42,617 nt of DNA, taken from the NCBI RefSeq assembly GCF_000384655.1, contig NZ_ARQI01000105.1, positions 1 to 42,617 on the forward strand, given 5' to 3'. This DNA is from Brachyspira innocens ATCC 29796 (GTDB taxonomy: Bacteria > Spirochaetota > Brachyspiria > Brachyspirales > Brachyspiraceae). Shown here piece by piece: positions 23,545 to 32,879 of the stretch; within the stretch, counting starts at the first letter, position 1, and the number at the start of each line of letters is the position of its first letter. The position numbers were made by a program, and so were the translations under genes. Under the pieces are notes generated by a model. It was not told the DNA's origin. It ran no database searches and worked only from the letters and a program-made list of their open reading frames with translations.

Positions 23545-24306
23545 TTATTCAGCACCTAATTCTTTTAACTTTTCTATAGCCTCATCTTCATCAGCATAAT
23601 ATAAAACTCCGTCTCCATCTTCATCTGTACTATTGATATCAAAACCTAAATCTCTAACTAAATATTCAAATACTTCTGTATTATTATTCAAAGCAGCCAT
23701 ATGAAGCCCGTTTGCATCATACATATTTTTAGAGTTTACCACATCAGGATCATACTGCACAAGCATTTTAATAACATCAACATTTCCAGTACCGCAAGCC
23801 CATAAAAATGAATTCCAGCCGTCATCATCTTTTACATAAGGGTCTGCTCCATTGTCAAGAAGATATTTCATTATACCTAAATCTCTGTAGAATACGGCAA
23901 ATATCAAAGGTGTAGCACCATTAGCAGAATAACTATCATTCATAAAATCGCTGTATATACTATCATCGCCATAATAGGACTCATCAATATCTCCGCCCTC
24001 TTCTATTAATTCCATTACTCTCTTTAAGCTATGATTTTCTATAGCCTCAAATATATCATAGTCCTCGCTGTATTCTCCTTCCTCCCTGTTGGCATAGGAT
24101 AAGGCAGAGTTCATATTAACAAATTTGCCCTGTATCTTTACAACATTAGTATAAGTTTTATGATAAATATTATCAGGATTACTTACATACACAGAATTAT
24201 TGCTTATACTTACACTAACCTCTTCTTTTTTCTTGCATGATATAATAAAAATAATTGATAATAAAGAAATTAACAATATAGTTTTTAACACTTTTATTCT
24301 TTTCAT
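23545..24306 (-). CDS. Ankyrin-repeat lipoprotein, copy 1
   Basis: Starts at the ATG at 24306 (an upstream ATG at 24360 would only add a stretch ahead of the signal peptide). The signal peptide ends in a lipobox FIISC, followed by KKKEE, so it is probably a lipoprotein. The mature part has a linker with NNSVYVSNPDNIYHKTYTNVVK, then about four ankyrin repeats: IFEAIENHSLKRVMELIEEGGD, TPLIFAVFYRDLGIMKYLLDNGADP, NSFLWACGTGNVDVIKMLV and NGLHMAALNNNTEVFEYLVRD. Ankyrin repeats mediate protein-protein contacts; the partner is unknown. Its mature part is nearly identical to copy 2 at 24913-25662, while the signal peptides clearly differ. Confidence 0.83.
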   Translation of the reverse strand: MKRIKVLKTILLISLLSIIFIISCKKKEEVSVSISNNSVYVSNPDNIYHKTYTNVVKIQGKFVNMNSALSYANREEGEYSEDYDIFEAIENHSLKRVMELIEEGGDIDESYYGDDSIYSDFMNDSYSANGATPLIFAVFYRDLGIMKYLLDNGADPYVKDDDGWNSFLWACGTGNVDVIKMLVQYDPDVVNSKNMYDANGLHMAALNNNTEVFEYLVRDLGFDINSTDEDGDGVLYYADEDEAIEKLKELGAE

Positions 24307-24360
24307 AAACACCGCCGTATAGTAATTAATAATTTGTGAAGTATTATACAATAAAAACAA

Positions 24361-24912: not shown

Positions 24913-25662
24913 TCATTCTTTAGCACCAAGTTCTTTTAATTTTTCTATAGCCTCATCTTCATCGGCATAATATAAAACTCCGTCTCCGTCTTCATCTGTA
25001 CTGTTTATATCAAAACCTAAATCTCTAACTAAATATTCAAATACTTCTGTATTATTATTCAAAGCAGCCATATGAAGCCCATTTGCATCATACATATTTT
25101 TAGAGTTTACAACATCAGGATCATACTGCACAAGCATTTTAATAACATCAACATTTCCAGTACCGCAAGCCCATAAAAAGGCATTCCAGCCGTCATCATC
25201 TTTTACATAAGGGTCTGCTCCATTGTCAAGAAGATATTTCATTATACCTAAATCTCTGTAAAATACAGCAAATATCAAAGGTGTAGCACCATTAGCAGAA
25301 TAACTATCATTCATAAAATCGCTGTATATACTGTCATCGCCGTAATAAGATTCATCAATATCTCCGCCTTTTTCTATTAATTCCATTACTCTTTTTAAAC
25401 TATGATTTTCTATAGCCTCAAATATATCATAGTCTTCACTGTATTCTCCTTCCTCCCTGTTGGCATAGGATAAAGCAGAGTTCATATTAACAAATTTACC
25501 CTGTATCTTTACAACATTAGTATAAGTTTTATGATAAATATTATCTGGACTGCTTACATACACAGAATTATTACTTATACTTACACTAGCCTCTTCTTTT
25601 TTACCGCAAGAAACAATAAAAGTGATCATTAAAACAAAAGAAATTAATAACAATTTTTTCAT
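24913..25662 (-). CDS. Ankyrin-repeat lipoprotein, copy 2
   Basis: Starts at the ATG at 25662, four codons inside a longer frame, because TGAGGCAG lies at ribosome-site distance from it. The signal peptide MKKLLLISFVLMITFIVSC carries a lipobox, with the mature protein beginning CGKKEEASVS. The rest follows copy 1 almost residue by residue: I find about five replacements in some 220 positions (for example EA for EV, SPDN for NPDN, EKGG for EEGG, NAFLW for NSFLW). About four ankyrin repeats lie between residues 65 and 245. The two leaders also share ATTATTAATTACTAT. The mature sequence is conserved while the signal peptide has diverged, which suggests gene conversion between copies. Function unknown. 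Confidence 0.83.
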   Translation of the reverse strand: MKKLLLISFVLMITFIVSCGKKEEASVSISNNSVYVSSPDNIYHKTYTNVVKIQGKFVNMNSALSYANREEGEYSEDYDIFEAIENHSLKRVMELIEKGGDIDESYYGDDSIYSDFMNDSYSANGATPLIFAVFYRDLGIMKYLLDNGADPYVKDDDGWNAFLWACGTGNVDVIKMLVQYDPDVVNSKNMYDANGLHMAALNNNTEVFEYLVRDLGFDINSTDEDGDGVLYYADEDEAIEKLKELGAKE

Positions 25663-25776
25663 ATACTGCCTCATAGTAATTAATAATTTCGAGTATTATA
25701 CTATAAAAATAAATAATTTTATATATACTAAAAAATTTTTAACTTTGTGAACTGATGGAATTTATATAGAATTATC

Positions 25777-26171: not shown

Positions 26172-27050
26172 TTATATAGCCTCAGAACCGCCTATAATAT
26201 CAAGAAGCTCATTAGTAATATGTTCCTGTCTTGCTCTGTTGGCTTTATTTTTCAAATCAGTAATTAATCTCTCAGCATTATCAGTAGCATTTCTCATAGC
26301 AATAGAACGTTCGGCATTCTCTGATAAAAATGAACTTGTAAGCATAAAATAAAAATAAGTTTTAATAGCCATAGGAACAATCTCTTTTAATACATCTTCT
26401 ATATTAGGCTCTATCACATAATCAAGTTTTTTCTTAATTTTATGACCTTCAATATCCTCTTCATCAGGTATCATAGGTATTAAACTTTTTATTTTAGGTA
26501 TATGAACCACCCTTGTATAATATCTTGTATATATAACTTCTACCCTTGAAGCATTATCCACAGCATATTCATGCATGAAACGCTGAACTACCGTAGCACA
26601 GTCATCAAAAGTAGATTCCTCATCTATACGCGGATATTTTCTAGCTATTGGTATACCCTGCTTTTCAAAATATGCTTCCCCCTTTTTACCAAGCACATGA
26701 AGCTGAACCTCTCTGCCATGTCTATGATGGTGTCTTATCCTCTCCATAGCCTCATCAAAAATTTTAGTATTATAAGAGCCGCATAAACCTCTGCTTGAAG
26801 TTACAACAAAAAGTATTATATTTTTTATTTTCTTTTTAGGAGCAAGAAGCGGATGCACATGATCCATATCAGAATGAGAAAGATCTTCTACTATTCTGTT
26901 GAGTTTTTGAGTAAAAGGACGCATACCCTGCTCTACTGTAAGTATTTTAGCAGTTCTTGAACGTGCTATCATATCCATAGTTTTAGTTATTTTATGTGTG
27001 CTTGTTACAGCTTTAATTCTTGCTTTTAATACATTAAGTTTCTCTGCCAT
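26172..27050 (-). CDS. atpG: F1 ATP synthase gamma subunit
   Basis: The central rotor stalk of F1, coupling c-ring rotation to catalysis. N-terminal helix KARIKAVTSTHKITKTMDMIA and C-terminal helix (AIAMRNATDNAERLITDLKNKANRARQEHITNEL..I) are the coiled-coil that enters the alpha3beta3 hexamer; VTSSRGLCGSYNT is the conserved central block. Length 292 is normal. GGAG lies seven bases before the ATG and overlaps the end of the preceding glycosyltransferase gene. It is the last gene of the operon, which is unusual because atpD and atpC normally follow. Confidence 0.95.
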   Translation of the reverse strand: MAEKLNVLKARIKAVTSTHKITKTMDMIARSRTAKILTVEQGMRPFTQKLNRIVEDLSHSDMDHVHPLLAPKKKIKNIILFVVTSSRGLCGSYNTKIFDEAMERIRHHHRHGREVQLHVLGKKGEAYFEKQGIPIARKYPRIDEESTFDDCATVVQRFMHEYAVDNASRVEVIYTRYYTRVVHIPKIKSLIPMIPDEEDIEGHKIKKKLDYVIEPNIEDVLKEIVPMAIKTYFYFMLTSSFLSENAERSIAMRNATDNAERLITDLKNKANRARQEHITNELLDIIGGSEAI

Positions 27051-27065
27051 AATCCAAACTCCAAA

Positions 27066-27905
27066 TTAATTAGAATTTTCTAAATCTTTATACAATTTAT
27101 CAATTATATCATTATCAATATTTTCATCAAACTTGCGTGCAAATAAATTATCTTTTATGTTTTCTTTTATTTTTTTATAATCTTTCATCTGCAAATTAAT
27201 AGGAGTACCTACACCCCATATAAGATATCTTAAAAAATCATTCACACATTTATCTTTAAAACTGCTTGTAAGAAGTATAGACTGAAAAAAAAACTCATCG
27301 CTTCCCCAAGTATAATTAAATCTATTTAAATACTGAGGATTTTTTTCTACATATTCAAGTATATATTTAATAGCATTATAGCTCAAATTCCACCAAGAAG
27401 AACCATAATATATATTTTCAGGTGTTTTTCTCTTTATAAATGGAATATTAGATATAGATTCTCTAAATTTCCTGCTTAACAGTTTTCTATATAGTTTTCC
27501 AAAGTTATAAGCATTAATCCTAAATGACATTTCTTTATACATACCATCATTATTTTTGATATTTTCAAATGAAATGAATTCCTTATCTTTATTTTCATCA
27601 AAAAAATTAATAATTTCTTTATTAGTTTTTAAAGGAACATCCTGACCGCTTATAAAAATATATCTTTCATAATTATTTTTAAAAGCTTCTCTCATCAAAA
27701 ATAAAGTTGCCGCAACTTGACTTACACCACCATGATAAACTTTAATACTTTTATAAATATTAACATTATCAAAACTTTTTAAGCTTAATTTGCTTTTTTT
27801 ATCAATATGCACATAAATATCAAAATCTTTTTTAAGATGATTAATTAATCTTAATAATTGACCCTGATTTTTATGTGCCGCTATCAAAAAACAAATTCTA
27901 TTCAT
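27066..27905 (-). CDS. GT14-type (Core-2/I-branching-like) glycosyltransferase inside atp operon
   Basis: A 279-residue cytoplasmic glycosyltransferase with features of the branching N-acetylglucosaminyltransferase family: opening CFLIAAHKNQGQLLRLI, YVHIDKKS, KVYHGG.SQVAATLFLM, YIFISGQDVPLKT, the acceptor block YYGSSWWNLSYNAIKYI and TWGSDEFFFQSIL, and a C-terminal LFARKFD. Bacterial members decorate capsules, lipooligosaccharide or glycans; donor and acceptor here are unknown. It begins three bases after the atpA stop and ends 15 bases before atpG, so it is cotranscribed and probably translationally coupled with ATP synthase genes. Nothing in the family links it to ATP synthase; insertion by rearrangement is the simplest reading. 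Confidence 0.85.
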   Translation of the reverse strand: MNRICFLIAAHKNQGQLLRLINHLKKDFDIYVHIDKKSKLSLKSFDNVNIYKSIKVYHGGVSQVAATLFLMREAFKNNYERYIFISGQDVPLKTNKEIINFFDENKDKEFISFENIKNNDGMYKEMSFRINAYNFGKLYRKLLSRKFRESISNIPFIKRKTPENIYYGSSWWNLSYNAIKYILEYVEKNPQYLNRFNYTWGSDEFFFQSILLTSSFKDKCVNDFLRYLIWGVGTPINLQMKDYKKIKENIKDNLFARKFDENIDNDIIDKLYKDLENSN

Positions 27906-27908
27906 AAA

Positions 27909-29408
27909 TTAAAACTTAGACTTAAACTCTTCTATAACTTTATAAAGACCGTCCATATCTTCTATATCTTTTTTCTCTCTAATATCATCAAGTACATTCT
28001 GTTTATCAGCTTTCATATACTGCAATAATCTCCATTCAAACTCATGCACTCTGTCAACTTCAATATTATCCAAGAAACCTTTAGTAGCTGCAAATATAAC
28101 AACAACCTGTTCTTCAAAAGGCATAGGACTGTATTGTTTCTGCTTTAATAATTCAACCATTTTAGCACCTCTGTCTAACTGTGCTAAAGTAGCCTTATCA
28201 AGCCCAATACCAAGCTGAGAGAAAGCCTCTAAAGATCTGTAAGAAGCAAGATCAAGTCTTAAAGTACCAGCAACCTTTTTCATAGCCTTAGTCTGAGCAT
28301 TACCGCCTACACGAGAAACGGATATACCAACATCTATAGCAGGACGTACACCGCTCATAAATAAACTAGTAAGCAAATATATCTGTCCGTCAGTAATAGA
28401 AATAACGTTAGTAGGAATATAAGCTGATACTTCATTATCCTGAGTTTCTATGATAGGAAGTGCTGTCAAAGAACCTCCTCCTAATTCATCGCTGAGTTTA
28501 GCTGCTCTTTCAAGAAGTCTTGAATGCAAATAGAAAACGTCTCCGGGGAAAGCCTCTCTTCCTGGAGGTCTTCTAAGAAGTAATGATATCTGTCTATAAG
28601 CATTAGCCTGTTTGGTTAAGTCATCATATATTATTAAAGTGTCTTTTTTCTGTTCATACATAAAGTATTCAGCCATAGCACATCCTGCATACGGAGCTAT
28701 ATAAAGAAGCGGAGCAGAATCAGCTGCAGTAGCCGCAACTACTATAGTATAGTCTAATGCCCCATGTTTTCTTAATGTATCAACAACACCAGCAACAGTA
28801 GAAGCCTTTTGTCCAATGGCTACATATACACATATTACTCCAGTGCCTTTTTGATTAATTATAGCATCTAAAGCAATAGAAGTTTTACCAGTACCTCTGT
28901 CGCCGATAATAAGCTGTCTTTGACCTCTTCCTACAGGAGTCATAGAGTCAATAGCTTTAATACCAGTCTGAAGCGGCTGTTTTACTGCCTGTCTGTCAGC
29001 AATACCGGGAGCTGGAAACTCTATTACTCTTCTTTTATCAGTAGTAATTTCTCCATGCCCATCTATAGGTACACCCAAAGGATTAACAACTCTTCCTAAA
29101 AGAGCCTCACCTACTGGAACTTCTAATATTCTTTTAAGTCTGCTTACTTTACTTCCCTCTTTAATGCCGTAATAATCACCCAAAACTATAGCACCTATAG
29201 TTTCTTCTTCCAAGTTAAAAGCAAGTCCTACCGCACCGCTTTCAAAAAGTATCATCTCATTGGCCATAACATGCGGAAGTCCAATTACTCTTGCAATACC
29301 ATCTCCTACTTCTACAACTACCCCTACTTCATTCGGAGTAAAATCAGCTTTATAATTCTTAATCTCTTCCTTAAGAACCGCTGCAATTTCACTAGCTTTT
29401 ATATTCAT
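27909..29408 (-). CDS. atpA: F1 ATP synthase alpha subunit
   Basis: Non-catalytic nucleotide-binding subunit of F1. The start is placed at the ATG at 29408 ([13 protein letters not shown]) because GGGGAA lies upstream and this is where the family begins; a longer frame to 29441 would overlap the upstream gene's end. The Walker A motif reads GDRGTGKTS, with IGQK and [29 protein letters not shown] blocks, and the arginine finger region is [10 protein letters not shown]. About 500 residues, normal. Its stop is followed after three bases by the glycosyltransferase gene. Confidence 0.97.
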
Positions 29409-29437
29409 AATCAATTCCCCAAATGTAAAAAATATAA

Positions 29438-30079
29438 TCAATTATCATCAGAAATAGAAGTTTTTAATTCTTTAAGTATTCTTCTTATACTGTAATCATA
29501 AACAATATCTTCTATCTCTATTACAATACCGCCTATAATATTTTCATCTGTATTAAATATAAAATGAACATCTCTGTCCTTAATCATATTTCTAATACAT
29601 TCTTTTAATTTTTCTATATCATCTATATTATTTATATCAGACGCCGTTATAATTCTAGCCACTGCTATATTATAATATTCGTTGCATAAGTTTTCATACT
29701 CTACTATTATAGCAAATAAAGTATGAATCAAATCTCTTTCTATTAATATAGCAATAAGGTTAAAAGTCTCCTCAGATATTTTACCTGCATATATTTTCTT
29801 TAATATACGCATTCTCAAATTGCCGTCTATAAAACTGGATTTAAAAAAATCATATATATCCTTATCAACAAGCAAAGATGAGTAAACAATATCCAAATCG
29901 CTTTTAATCACTTCTATTTTTCCAGCATCAGAAGCTACATCAAACATTGCCTTAGCATAATTTTTAGCACTTGATTCATTTTTCGTTATACGTGTGAATC
30001 TGCTAACTTTTTCTCTGGTGCTCTCTTTCATCACCTCTTTTTTCAAATCTTTTAAAATGCTGTCAGCAATAGACTCCAT
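29438..30079 (-). CDS. atpH: F1 ATP synthase delta subunit, second tandem copy
   Basis: The delta subunit (OSCP equivalent) ties the peripheral stalk to the top of F1. It starts with an ATG at 30079, nine bases from AGGAG; an ATG at 30085 lies only three bases from it. An extra Lys/Glu-rich stretch of about 35 residues precedes the domain proper ([23 protein letters not shown]). The C-terminal part ([10 protein letters not shown]... [25 protein letters not shown]) aligns with the family. It follows another delta-type gene by about 20-27 bases. Sequence identity between the two copies is modest, so this is not a recent duplication. The two may alternate, or one may have a specialised role; neither is truncated. 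Confidence 0.85.
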
Positions 30080-30106
30080 AAGCATAATCTCCTACAATAT
30101 TTAAGA

Positions 30107-30655
30107 TTAATTACCTCGCGTAAATTTACTTTGCAATAAATCTATCTGATTTTTTATACTATAATCATAAACTGTAGAACCAATATATACTATTATACCG
30201 CCTATAATACGCTCATCAACCTCTGTTTCATAAGATATTTCATTACTGGAAAAACATTTTACTGTCTGAATAATATCTTCTATTGTTTTATCATCAACAG
30301 GAGAAGCTGTAATAATACGCACTCTAACTATATTATTATAATCATCTACTATATCTTTATATAAGCCTGCTATATCGGGAAGTACATCTATACTGTCATG
30401 TTCTGCCAATATAGAAACAAAAGCATAAGTTTCTTTAGAAAGCAAAGGTTTTAACCTTTTATCTATTAATTCTTTTTTGTCTTTCTTAGAAATAAATTTA
30501 TCAAAAAAATAATTCTTTATATCAATATCCTGAAACAATTTAGAACATTCTGTAAGTTCATTATATATTTCTCTTATCATTCCAAGCTCTCTGGCTATGT
30601 CAAATATGGCATTAGCTGTGGGCTTTAATATTTCTAATTTTTCACTTTCTCTCAT
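30107..30655 (-). CDS. atpH: F1 ATP synthase delta subunit, first tandem copy
   Basis: A 182-residue delta subunit of normal length: [25 protein letters not shown] at the N-terminal helical domain, [29 protein letters not shown], and the family C-terminus [12 protein letters not shown]... [33 protein letters not shown] precedes the ATG, and atpF ends 41 bases upstream. This copy lies in the standard place (after atpF, before atpA) and is closer in length to ordinary delta subunits than the second copy. Confidence 0.87.
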
Positions 30656-30696: not shown

Positions 30697-31197
30697 TTAT
30701 TTATTGTTTTCTTTACCTGCATTATTAATAAACTCATTAATTATAGCCTGATTATCTTCTTTATTGATATTTCTTTTAAGAATAGTTTCTGCCATAACAA
30801 CAGCAATATCAAGTGCCTGTTTTTTAACACTATTCATAGCCTCTTCTTTAGACCTGTCTATTTCAGACATAATTTTGTTTTTATTAACTTCCGCCTCTTC
30901 TCTGGCATTATTAATAATTTTATCTCTAATTCTATTCGCCTCAACTCTTGCATTTTCTATAATAGCACTGGCTTCGGCTTTAGCATTATCAATCTGCTCC
31001 CTGTATGCTGCCAAAGATTTTTTAGCATTTTCTCTAGTTTTTTCTGCTTCTTCCAAATCTTCCTGTATTTTATCAGCACGGGCATTCAAACCTTTCAAAA
31101 TTATTTTCCAAGTAGAAGCACCTAATATAGCAAGAACTAGTAAAAATGTGATCCAAGTCCAAATGATAATACCGGGATCTATTTTTAAAAGTGCCAT
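30697..31197 (-). CDS. atpF: Fo ATP synthase subunit b
   Basis: Peripheral-stalk subunit: one N-terminal membrane helix ([21 protein letters not shown], about 9-28), then a long charged helix with the continuous Ala/Glu/Lys heptad pattern of b subunits ([29 protein letters not shown] onward) to residue 166. GGAGG lies eight bases before the ATG. Confidence 0.95.
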
Positions 31198-31223: not shown

Positions 31224-31460
<237 letters not shown>

Positions 31461-31496: not shown

Positions 31497-32408
31497 TTAA
31501 TGCTCATCACTAATAGCAATTCCAATATAAACTGCTGATAATAATGAGAATATATAAGCTTGTAAAACCGCTACAAACATCTCAAGCACATATATAAATG
31601 CCAAAAACAACACCGCAAATGGCGAAACAAGCAAAGTTCCAGACATAATAATCAAGTACGGTATTACTATCATCATTATGTGACCGCCTGTAATGTTTGC
31701 AAAAAGACGTATAGCAAGAGCAAAAGCCCTGTTAAATAATGTAATAACTTCTAATACCCATATTATAGGTATAAGCGGTATAGGAAGCCCTTTAGGTACT
31801 AAAGATGTCCAATATCTTATAATACCTTTTTTTCTTATACCCGCAAAAATATAAACTATAAACACAATTACCGCTATTGAAGCTGTAAACCCTATATTTG
31901 CCCCAAGTCCGCCTGCTATATATGAATGACCTCCGTTTTCGGTAGGAAACTTCACCGATGCTGGTATAAGCCCCAATATATTTGAAAATAATACAAATAA
32001 AAACACAGTCAGACAAAAAGGCACATATTTTTTGCCTTCCTCGCCTAATGTAGCACCTATAACATCCTTATTCATATAGTCAATTAAACCTTCTAATATA
32101 CTTTGTAAGTATGTAGGTCTGTTAAACGGACGTTTAAGCTTATGAGCTAAATATTTCATACTAAGTACAGATAAAATACCAGCTAAAGTTATTAATATGA
32201 TATGCTTTGTTATCTTAAAATCGAAATTAATATAATGACCTAATCTTATAGGAATAGTATAAAACGGATCAGATGTATTATCTGTTATCTCCTCCATTAT
32301 ATAATCATTAATACTTTCAGCCCCATATACCATATCAGATGAAAATATAGCTGCAACAATAAAGGTTAATACAAAAATTTTCCTTAAAAAAATCACTTCT
32401 TTAATCAT
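31497..32408 (-). CDS. atpB: Fo ATP synthase subunit a
   Basis: Stator channel subunit. The essential arginine is in ALAIRLFANITGGH. Further family blocks are FVLFSNILGLIP and the C-terminal VLQAYIFSLLSAVYIGIAISDEH. An N-terminal hydrophobic segment ending VYG-AES looks like a cleavable signal sequence, as in some other long a subunits. The start is uncertain: the ATG at 32408 is used here, but a TTG at 32417 has AAGGG at better spacing, and a GTG at 32396 is possible too. First gene of the operon; the STAS gene is upstream in the same direction. Confidence 0.93.
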   Translation of the reverse strand: MIKEVIFLRKIFVLTFIVAAIFSSDMVYGAESINDYIMEEITDNTSDPFYTIPIRLGHYINFDFKITKHIILITLAGILSVLSMKYLAHKLKRPFNRPTYLQSILEGLIDYMNKDVIGATLGEEGKKYVPFCLTVFLFVLFSNILGLIPASVKFPTENGGHSYIAGGLGANIGFTASIAVIVFIVYIFAGIRKKGIIRYWTSLVPKGLPIPLIPIIWVLEVITLFNRAFALAIRLFANITGGHIMMIVIPYLIIMSGTLLVSPFAVLFLAFIYVLEMFVAVLQAYIFSLLSAVYIGIAISDEH

Positions 32409-32543
32409 AATAAACAATTACTACCCTTAACTTAAGAAAATTTCTTTGATTCAATTAAAAAATAAAAATAATTTCAAATAATTGTATAACTATTAAATAA
32501 AAAATCAACCATTATTATTTATTTTTTAATCAAAATAAAAAAA

Positions 32544-32879
32544 TCACAATTTATCCATAGCTTCAGTTTCACTTGTAAATATTGGAAAAAAGCTTGTGAT
32601 TTTTGTAAGTTCAAACACTTTTTTAACAGGTTCTGTAACTTTTACAAAACATATTTTACCATTTACCTTCTTAAAAACACCAAGTGCTGAAATAAATACC
32701 CCTATTCCGCTGCTGTCTATATAATAAACATCTTCCATATCTATTATTATTCTTTTAGCTCCTAATTCTATTTGGGAAAATATAACATCTTTCAAGTCTG
32801 ATGAAGTATATACATCTATATCTCCATCTAACTTTAGTACAGCTGTATTATTTTCAAGTTCTTTAACAGAAACTTCCAT
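32544..32879 (-). CDS. STAS-domain anti-sigma factor antagonist
   Basis: A 111-residue single STAS domain of the SpoIIAA/RsbV type. VLKLDGDIDVYTSSDLKD leads to the first helix, and IIIDMEDVYYIDSSGIGVFISAL contains the Ser (in DSSG) phosphorylated by a partner anti-sigma kinase in the family. No anti-sigma factor, phosphatase or sigma factor is adjacent. It is upstream of the ATP synthase genes with about 135 bases between; whether they share a transcript is open, since no convincing terminator is seen in the gap. Confidence 0.9.
   Translation of the reverse strand: MEVSVKELENNTAVLKLDGDIDVYTSSDLKDVIFSQIELGAKRIIIDMEDVYYIDSSGIGVFISALGVFKKVNGKICFVKVTEPVKKVFELTKITSFFPIFTSETEAMDKL

Follow-up and report, generated by a model that had tools for sequence, protein, structure and literature searches.

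To our knowledge, every ATP synthase studied so far uses its delta subunit only once, and this one-delta-per-F1 rule sets the number of peripheral stalks and hence the number of a subunits and of ions per ATP. The occurrence of two delta-type genes, here called d1 (upstream) and d2 (downstream), in a single Brachyspira ATP synthase operon raises the question of how such an enzyme would accommodate them. Either two versions of the enzyme are built, or the stalk is put together in a novel way. We addressed this question starting from a window of 42,617 nucleotides that contains the operon; among named records, Brachyspira sp. G79 comes closest to it.

The operon and the rest of the F1Fo set

The ATP synthase operon lies on the minus strand, in the order STAS-a-c-b-d1-d2-alpha-glycosyltransferase-gamma (Table 1). 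The STAS name of the gene at its head is our presumption from reading the protein by eye, and the alpha subunit starts with MNIKASEI, within the ORF 27909-29441. No clear internal promoter was found in the operon, the counts being only ~2 standard deviations above those of shuffles in this AT-rich genome.

TABLE 1 Features of the ATP synthase operon in the analyzed window
Feature	Position	Strand	Remarks
STAS-domain (anti-sigma-factor-antagonist-like) gene, cluster head	32544..32879	-	Place kept in Brachyspira
atpB, subunit a	31497..32417	-	PF00119
atpE, subunit c	31224..31445	-	PF00137
atpF, subunit b	30697..31197	-	PF00430; single match in genome
d1, upstream delta-type gene	30107..30655	-	182 aa; no N-terminal extension; Thr at E. 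coli position 11; PF00213 (residues 14-177), TIGR01145; AF2 pLDDT 87
d2, downstream delta-type gene	29438..30085	-	PF00213 (residues 40-210); AF2 pLDDT 81
N-terminal extension of d2, ~35 codons	29975..30079	-	In all 24 d2 and 3 sister-genus deltas
atpA, subunit alpha	27909..29408	-	TIGR00962, 790.7 bits; the genome's only F1 alpha
Core-2/I-branching-type glycosyltransferase between alpha and gamma	27066..27905	-	PF02485, 6e-25
atpG, subunit gamma, operon end	26172..27050	-	TIGR01146
Terminator-like site after gamma	26148-26122	-	

Against the two deltas, which are the only places matched by PF00213 in the 3.28 Mb genome, stand a single alpha, a single beta, a single b, and a single epsilon; it follows that two deltas are available for one F1. 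A second ATP synthase to go with the second delta was considered and ruled out, as F1 alpha and beta each occur once in the genome. The remaining matches to PF00006 correspond to FliI, to V-type A and B, and to Rho, where the V-type and Rho proteins were named by eye.

Some further features of the gene set can be reported. The genes atpD and atpC are located outside the operon on two further contigs, one with beta and the other with epsilon, so that the F1 genes occupy at least three places. The V-type ATPase A and B subunits, as named by eye, imply that both rotary ATPase types are encoded in the same genome. The glycosyltransferase keeps its place between atpA and atpG in most Brachyspira and in one sister genus; its copies vary, being doubled at some loci (e.g., L044, L048, and L055), split at L061, and absent at others (e.g., L045, L049, and L051). 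Elsewhere in the window, two near-identical ankyrin-repeat lipoprotein-like genes occur in tandem on the minus strand (23545-24360 and 24913-25674), with a 300 nt direct repeat of 94% identity, 1371 nt apart.

Both genes belong to the delta/OSCP family

The sequence-only reading had described two full-length and widely diverged delta genes in tandem, each with a ribosome site and the delta C-terminal pattern, the second with about 35 extra N-terminal residues, and our analysis confirmed this description. Both ORFs are full length and score well over the cut-offs of the two family profiles (22.3 bits for PF00213 and 57.5 bits for TIGR01145), with 123.8 bits (E 9.9e-36) and 100.4 bits, respectively, for d1 and 114.6 bits (E 6.7e-33) and 94.9 bits for d2. 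Purine-rich ribosome sites are present 7 nt before the ATG of d1 (AGGAAG) and 9 nt before the second ATG of d2 (AGGAG). It is this second ATG, at 30079 (residue 3 of the listed ORF), that is conserved as the start in relatives; from it, d2 measures 213 aa (215 aa from the first ATG), and its extension over d1 is ~35 aa. The two proteins are ~30% identical; identities amount to 34/121 across the N-terminal domain and to 25/74 across the C-terminal one. Both d1 and d2 contain the C-terminal pattern RIITAS...IIGGI...VYDYSI, whose Y-D-Y-S part (Y160 and Y162) is invariant among the deltas of d1, d2, and the sister genera.

Furthermore, neither copy scores to another family. In a PDB sequence search, both match delta/OSCP chains, and the AF2 models of both consist of an N-terminal helical bundle and a C-terminal alpha/beta domain, with delta/OSCP chains as the top PDB fold matches (E ~1e-11). 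Both genes are placed in the atp operon between b and alpha, and both are members of the delta/OSCP family. That one ORF is not a delta, or that the pair stems from faulty assembly or from a gene broken in two, is hardly conceivable: we found no evidence in support of such a reading, and the pair recurs across many assemblies made independently, among them named Brachyspira records and long genomes on a single contig.

Distribution of the delta pair

The delta pair is a genus-wide trait of Brachyspira. Delta was found in 25 of the 26 Brachyspira genomes sampled, and 24 of these 25 carry d1 and d2 in tandem, with d1 split over two contigs in one of them (G020). The exception is G010, a MAG of 2.0 Mb and 99% completeness, which has only a d1-type delta, directly before alpha; no delta was seen in G008, an incomplete genome. 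Two sister genera, represented by three genomes, have just one delta gene per genome, which bears a d2-like N-terminal extension; in two of the three, an unrelated ORF separates it from alpha. Outside Brachyspira, no intact tandem pair was detected in our sample of 296 Spirochaetota genomes (133 with delta), to which the survey was confined, and pairs may occur elsewhere; the two weak delta matches of G207, an assembly of 930 contigs, are presumed to be fragments.

We also considered whether the sister genera might hide a second delta ahead of alpha and discarded this idea, the gap of ~670 bases after delta holding a different ORF. In the sister genus g2, a diphthamide-ligase-like ORF (ATP_bind_4-like, by eye) follows the single delta and precedes alpha (L062:5238-5888 and L064:5650-6324). 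As for the literature, a published description of the Brachyspira delta pair was not found in the open-access papers searched. Subunit b is among the detected proteins in a Brachyspira proteome paper (PMC4955376).

Origin of the pair and selection on both copies

A phylogeny of the two copies with other deltas, which the sequence-only reading had proposed as a check, recovers each of them as a supported group among deltas. The d1 sequences, including that of G010, form one group (support 100/100) and the d2 sequences another (100/99), both inside the family clade (97/91). Since both groups fall inside this clade, duplication within the lineage, and not transfer, accounts for the pair, whose in-lineage origin is not in much doubt. 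Horizontal transfer of d1 was considered separately and is unsupported, d1 lying within the family clade and sharing the YDYS change. In particular, d2 groups with the single deltas found in the sister genera, with d1 as a separate clade, and a reduced sequence set again links d2 with one sister genus. The AU test gave p 0.416 for d2 with the sister genera and p 0.124 for d1 and d2 as one group, and so a duplication inside the Brachyspira stem is not rejected. These results show a tandem duplication of atpH in Brachyspiraceae or in the Brachyspira stem, both products of which were kept.

Both d1 and d2 are under purifying selection, with dN/dS values (mostly 0.05-0.4) that are similar between the copies and looser than those of alpha or gamma. 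Their joint retention under such selection across the genus supports distinct roles. In this respect, we consider it very unlikely that d1 and d2 do the same job and largely duplicate each other, persisting for reasons of dosage or because loss is slow: even though either copy can be lost in some lineage, their low identity, the fixed residues private to each, and the retention of the pair in 24/25 genomes all speak against mere dosage.

In the a-b-alpha-gamma tree, G010 falls inside Brachyspira, after G006 and G021, both of which have d1 and d2; since it is nested within the genus and has no d2, G010 has lost d2. Because of this loss, and because the sister genera are without d1, each delta type can, to judge from gene content, serve alone, and G010 offers a natural setting in which to study a cell that relies on d1 only. 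The branch of G010 in the same tree is unusually long (0.3 versus a median of 0.01).

Sequence differences between d1 and d2

The positions conserved in outgroup deltas are kept to a different extent in the two copies, 48/60 in d2 and 40/60 in d1, and those lost in d1 include Tyr11 (E. coli numbering), the most telling case, and several others of the N-terminal domain. Tyr11 belongs to helix I and is part of the surface, formed by helices I and V, to which the alpha N-terminal helix binds; an aromatic residue here is conserved among deltas but does not define the family. At this site, d1 features Thr (19 sequences) or Ala (5 sequences) in 24/24 cases, including G010; Tyr occurs in 24/24 d2 and 3/3 sister deltas, and an aromatic residue in all 13 outgroup rows. 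The numbering was checked against 5t4o_L. At the sequence level, the comparison thus shows d1 as a paralogue without the extension and with a remodelled alpha-binding face, and d2 as the copy that keeps the usual F1-binding residues. In d2, a run starting with AI[IV] around E. coli positions 91-104 (the inter-domain hinge) is invariant in 24 genomes and variable in d1 and in the sister deltas.

The lower number of conserved positions in d1 and the loss of Tyr11 count in favor of a reading in which d2 alone is structural, whereas d1 would help in assembly, be kept in reserve, or act as a regulator through transient binding to F1 or b. We regard this as rather unlikely, considering the full family scores and the confident two-domain fold of d1, as well as its occurrence as the only delta of G010, beside an otherwise intact a-c-b-alpha-gamma set; with no other delta there, d1 must be structural in that genome and work with alpha.

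The d1 of G010 keeps 40/45 genus-invariant positions, the 5 changes all being conservative, and its core-position retention, 62%, is close to the 66-77% of lineages still having d2. That these positions are kept in the absence of d2 argues that the conserved d1 surface is probably not mainly a d2-binding surface. For the same reason, and since the sister genera have the d2 type only, the evidence leans away from an obligate d1-d2 heterodimer.

The N-terminal extension of d2

The extension is conserved, and AF2 predicts a helix at residues 4-29 with low confidence. Its first ~16 residues are alphaN-like and are followed by a conserved EKxxRF segment; a PDB sequence search with the extension alone returned no match. 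The alphaN-like start is in register from Met, both in the sister delta (MDSLTSSISDKLKQEIKSE) and in d2 (MDSIADNILSDLKKEVLKE). When the extension was compared to the alpha N terminus by composition shuffles, the Met-anchored p was 0.0002 to 0.07 for most rows. Alpha profiles gave upper-tail scores against a null with a thick tail, and for one row, with one of three profiles, the score lay beyond all null windows. The five-position motif [ILV]xxx[LI][KQR]xE[IV], also present in alpha, begins in most d2 at residue 8, counted from Met; among 69,982 distinct 9-mers taken from other proteins it has one occurrence, and among 435 other N termini none, figures to be read with the post hoc choice of the motif in mind. 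With columns fixed from alpha alone, the Met-anchored per-window p was mostly 0.03-0.0003 and was not significant for G011 and G028. Taken together, these comparisons are suggestive of a weak resemblance between the d2 extension and the delta-binding N terminus of alpha.

If the likeness is real, a tandem duplication of delta together with the first alpha codons, giving d1 and alphaN-d2, may be offered, as an idea only, as a simple origin of the extension, because the gene order fits.

The same likeness bears on the possibility that both deltas are part of the same ATP synthase, with d2 capping F1 and d1 held beside it in a heteromeric or doubled peripheral stalk, where perhaps the alphaN-like helix of d2 docks on the delta fold of d1. 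The two adjacent genes are conserved together under similar constraint, the alphaN-binding helix I of d1 is remodelled in all 24 cases, and the extension resembles the delta-binding helix of alpha. In addition, enzymes engineered to carry two or three delta/b2 stalks are viable, and natural ones may exist according to their authors (PMC12229609). We nevertheless hold this arrangement to be unlikely, though worth keeping in view. The sister genera have the extension and no d1 and, since they share it as single-copy lineages, the extension would not have been invented for a two-delta enzyme, unless they lost d1. Conversely, G010 has d1 and no d2, with no special release of the constraint on d1. 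Moreover, each copy keeps the full N-terminal domain, which is the stalk-limiting part in the engineered work (PMC12229609), and the extension motif was chosen after the match had been seen, the alpha-only columns not reaching significance in two genomes. More specifically, a natural heteromeric or multi-stalk F1Fo, in which d2 on F1 would recruit d1 as a second stalk anchor through its alphaN-like helix, seems to us distinctly unlikely.

Alternative delta isoforms as the favored explanation

The explanation that we favor, giving it close to an even chance, is that d1 and d2 are alternative isoforms, with one delta per enzyme and two isoforms of one ATP synthase in the cell. Their family membership, operon place, and fold suggest that both would be expressed from the one operon and serve as delta subunits, in which the N-terminal domain caps F1 on the alpha N termini and the C-terminal domain holds the b2 stalk. 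Since both keep the N-terminal domain, d1 and d2 would compete for the one axial delta site of F1, and the cell would hold d2-type and d1-type enzymes differing in how tightly the stalk grips F1. At the sequence level, the d2 type continues the N-extended delta of the family and corresponds to the single delta of the sister genera. Given that F1 offers one axial delta site and that each copy is the sole delta in some lineage, one delta per enzyme is the likeliest arrangement. In the literature, a single delta occupies the F1 axis, in contact with all three alpha N termini, and its N-terminal domain limits the enzyme to one stalk (PMC12229609, PMC6131620); delta joins after the alpha-beta hexamer has formed (PMC8904574).

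Some observations do not sit easily with alternative isoforms. The fit of d1 to alpha may be weak, given that d1 has no helix-I tyrosine, which is near-universal in deltas, and G010 is fast-evolving and a MAG. Alternative isoforms usually benefit from separate regulation, whereas here both genes are in one operon with no clear internal promoter. Should d1 and d2 be isoforms only, Brachyspira would have a bacterial ATP synthase with interchangeable stalk anchors, of which we found no description in the open-access papers searched. Should both deltas be present in one enzyme, which is the exciting case, the stalk assembly would be of a kind not yet seen in nature.

Comparison with known systems

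The Brachyspira proteins share with bacterial delta (atpH; E. coli 5t4o_L and Bacillus PS3 6n2y_I) the same family scores, the two-domain fold, and the place between b and alpha. Different from known delta, d2 has an N-terminal helix and d1 is without the helix-I tyrosine; and where known bacterial F1Fo possess a single delta gene and a single delta per F1, Brachyspira has two diverged genes in tandem.

Heteromeric peripheral stalks made of b and b-prime occur in cyanobacteria, chloroplasts, and some Proteobacteria. There, too, a peripheral-stalk gene was tandemly duplicated inside the atp operon and both copies were kept, but b fills two existing positions, whereas in Brachyspira it is delta that is doubled, for which one position is known. 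The mycobacterial b-delta fusion (7njk_d, among the Foldseek matches) is similarly a delta with an added N-terminal part; however, a whole b-like stalk is added in that case, while the addition to d2 is a helix of ~35 residues and b is separate.

The engineered multi-stalk FoF1 of Bacillus PS3 is comparable in that it bears on the number of delta/b2 stalks that one F1 can take and has delta joined to the alpha N terminus (PMC12229609). It is man-made, with the delta C-terminal domain fused before alpha and the delta N-terminal domain removed (PMC12229609); Brachyspira, by comparison, retains the N-terminal domain in both copies, and the alphaN-like helix precedes delta. In that 2025 study, changing delta changed the stalk number, and its authors asked about natural multi-stalk enzymes (PMC12229609). 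Brachyspira is a natural place to look for them: it has two conserved deltas beside one alpha and one b, and the lineages missing one copy provide built-in controls.
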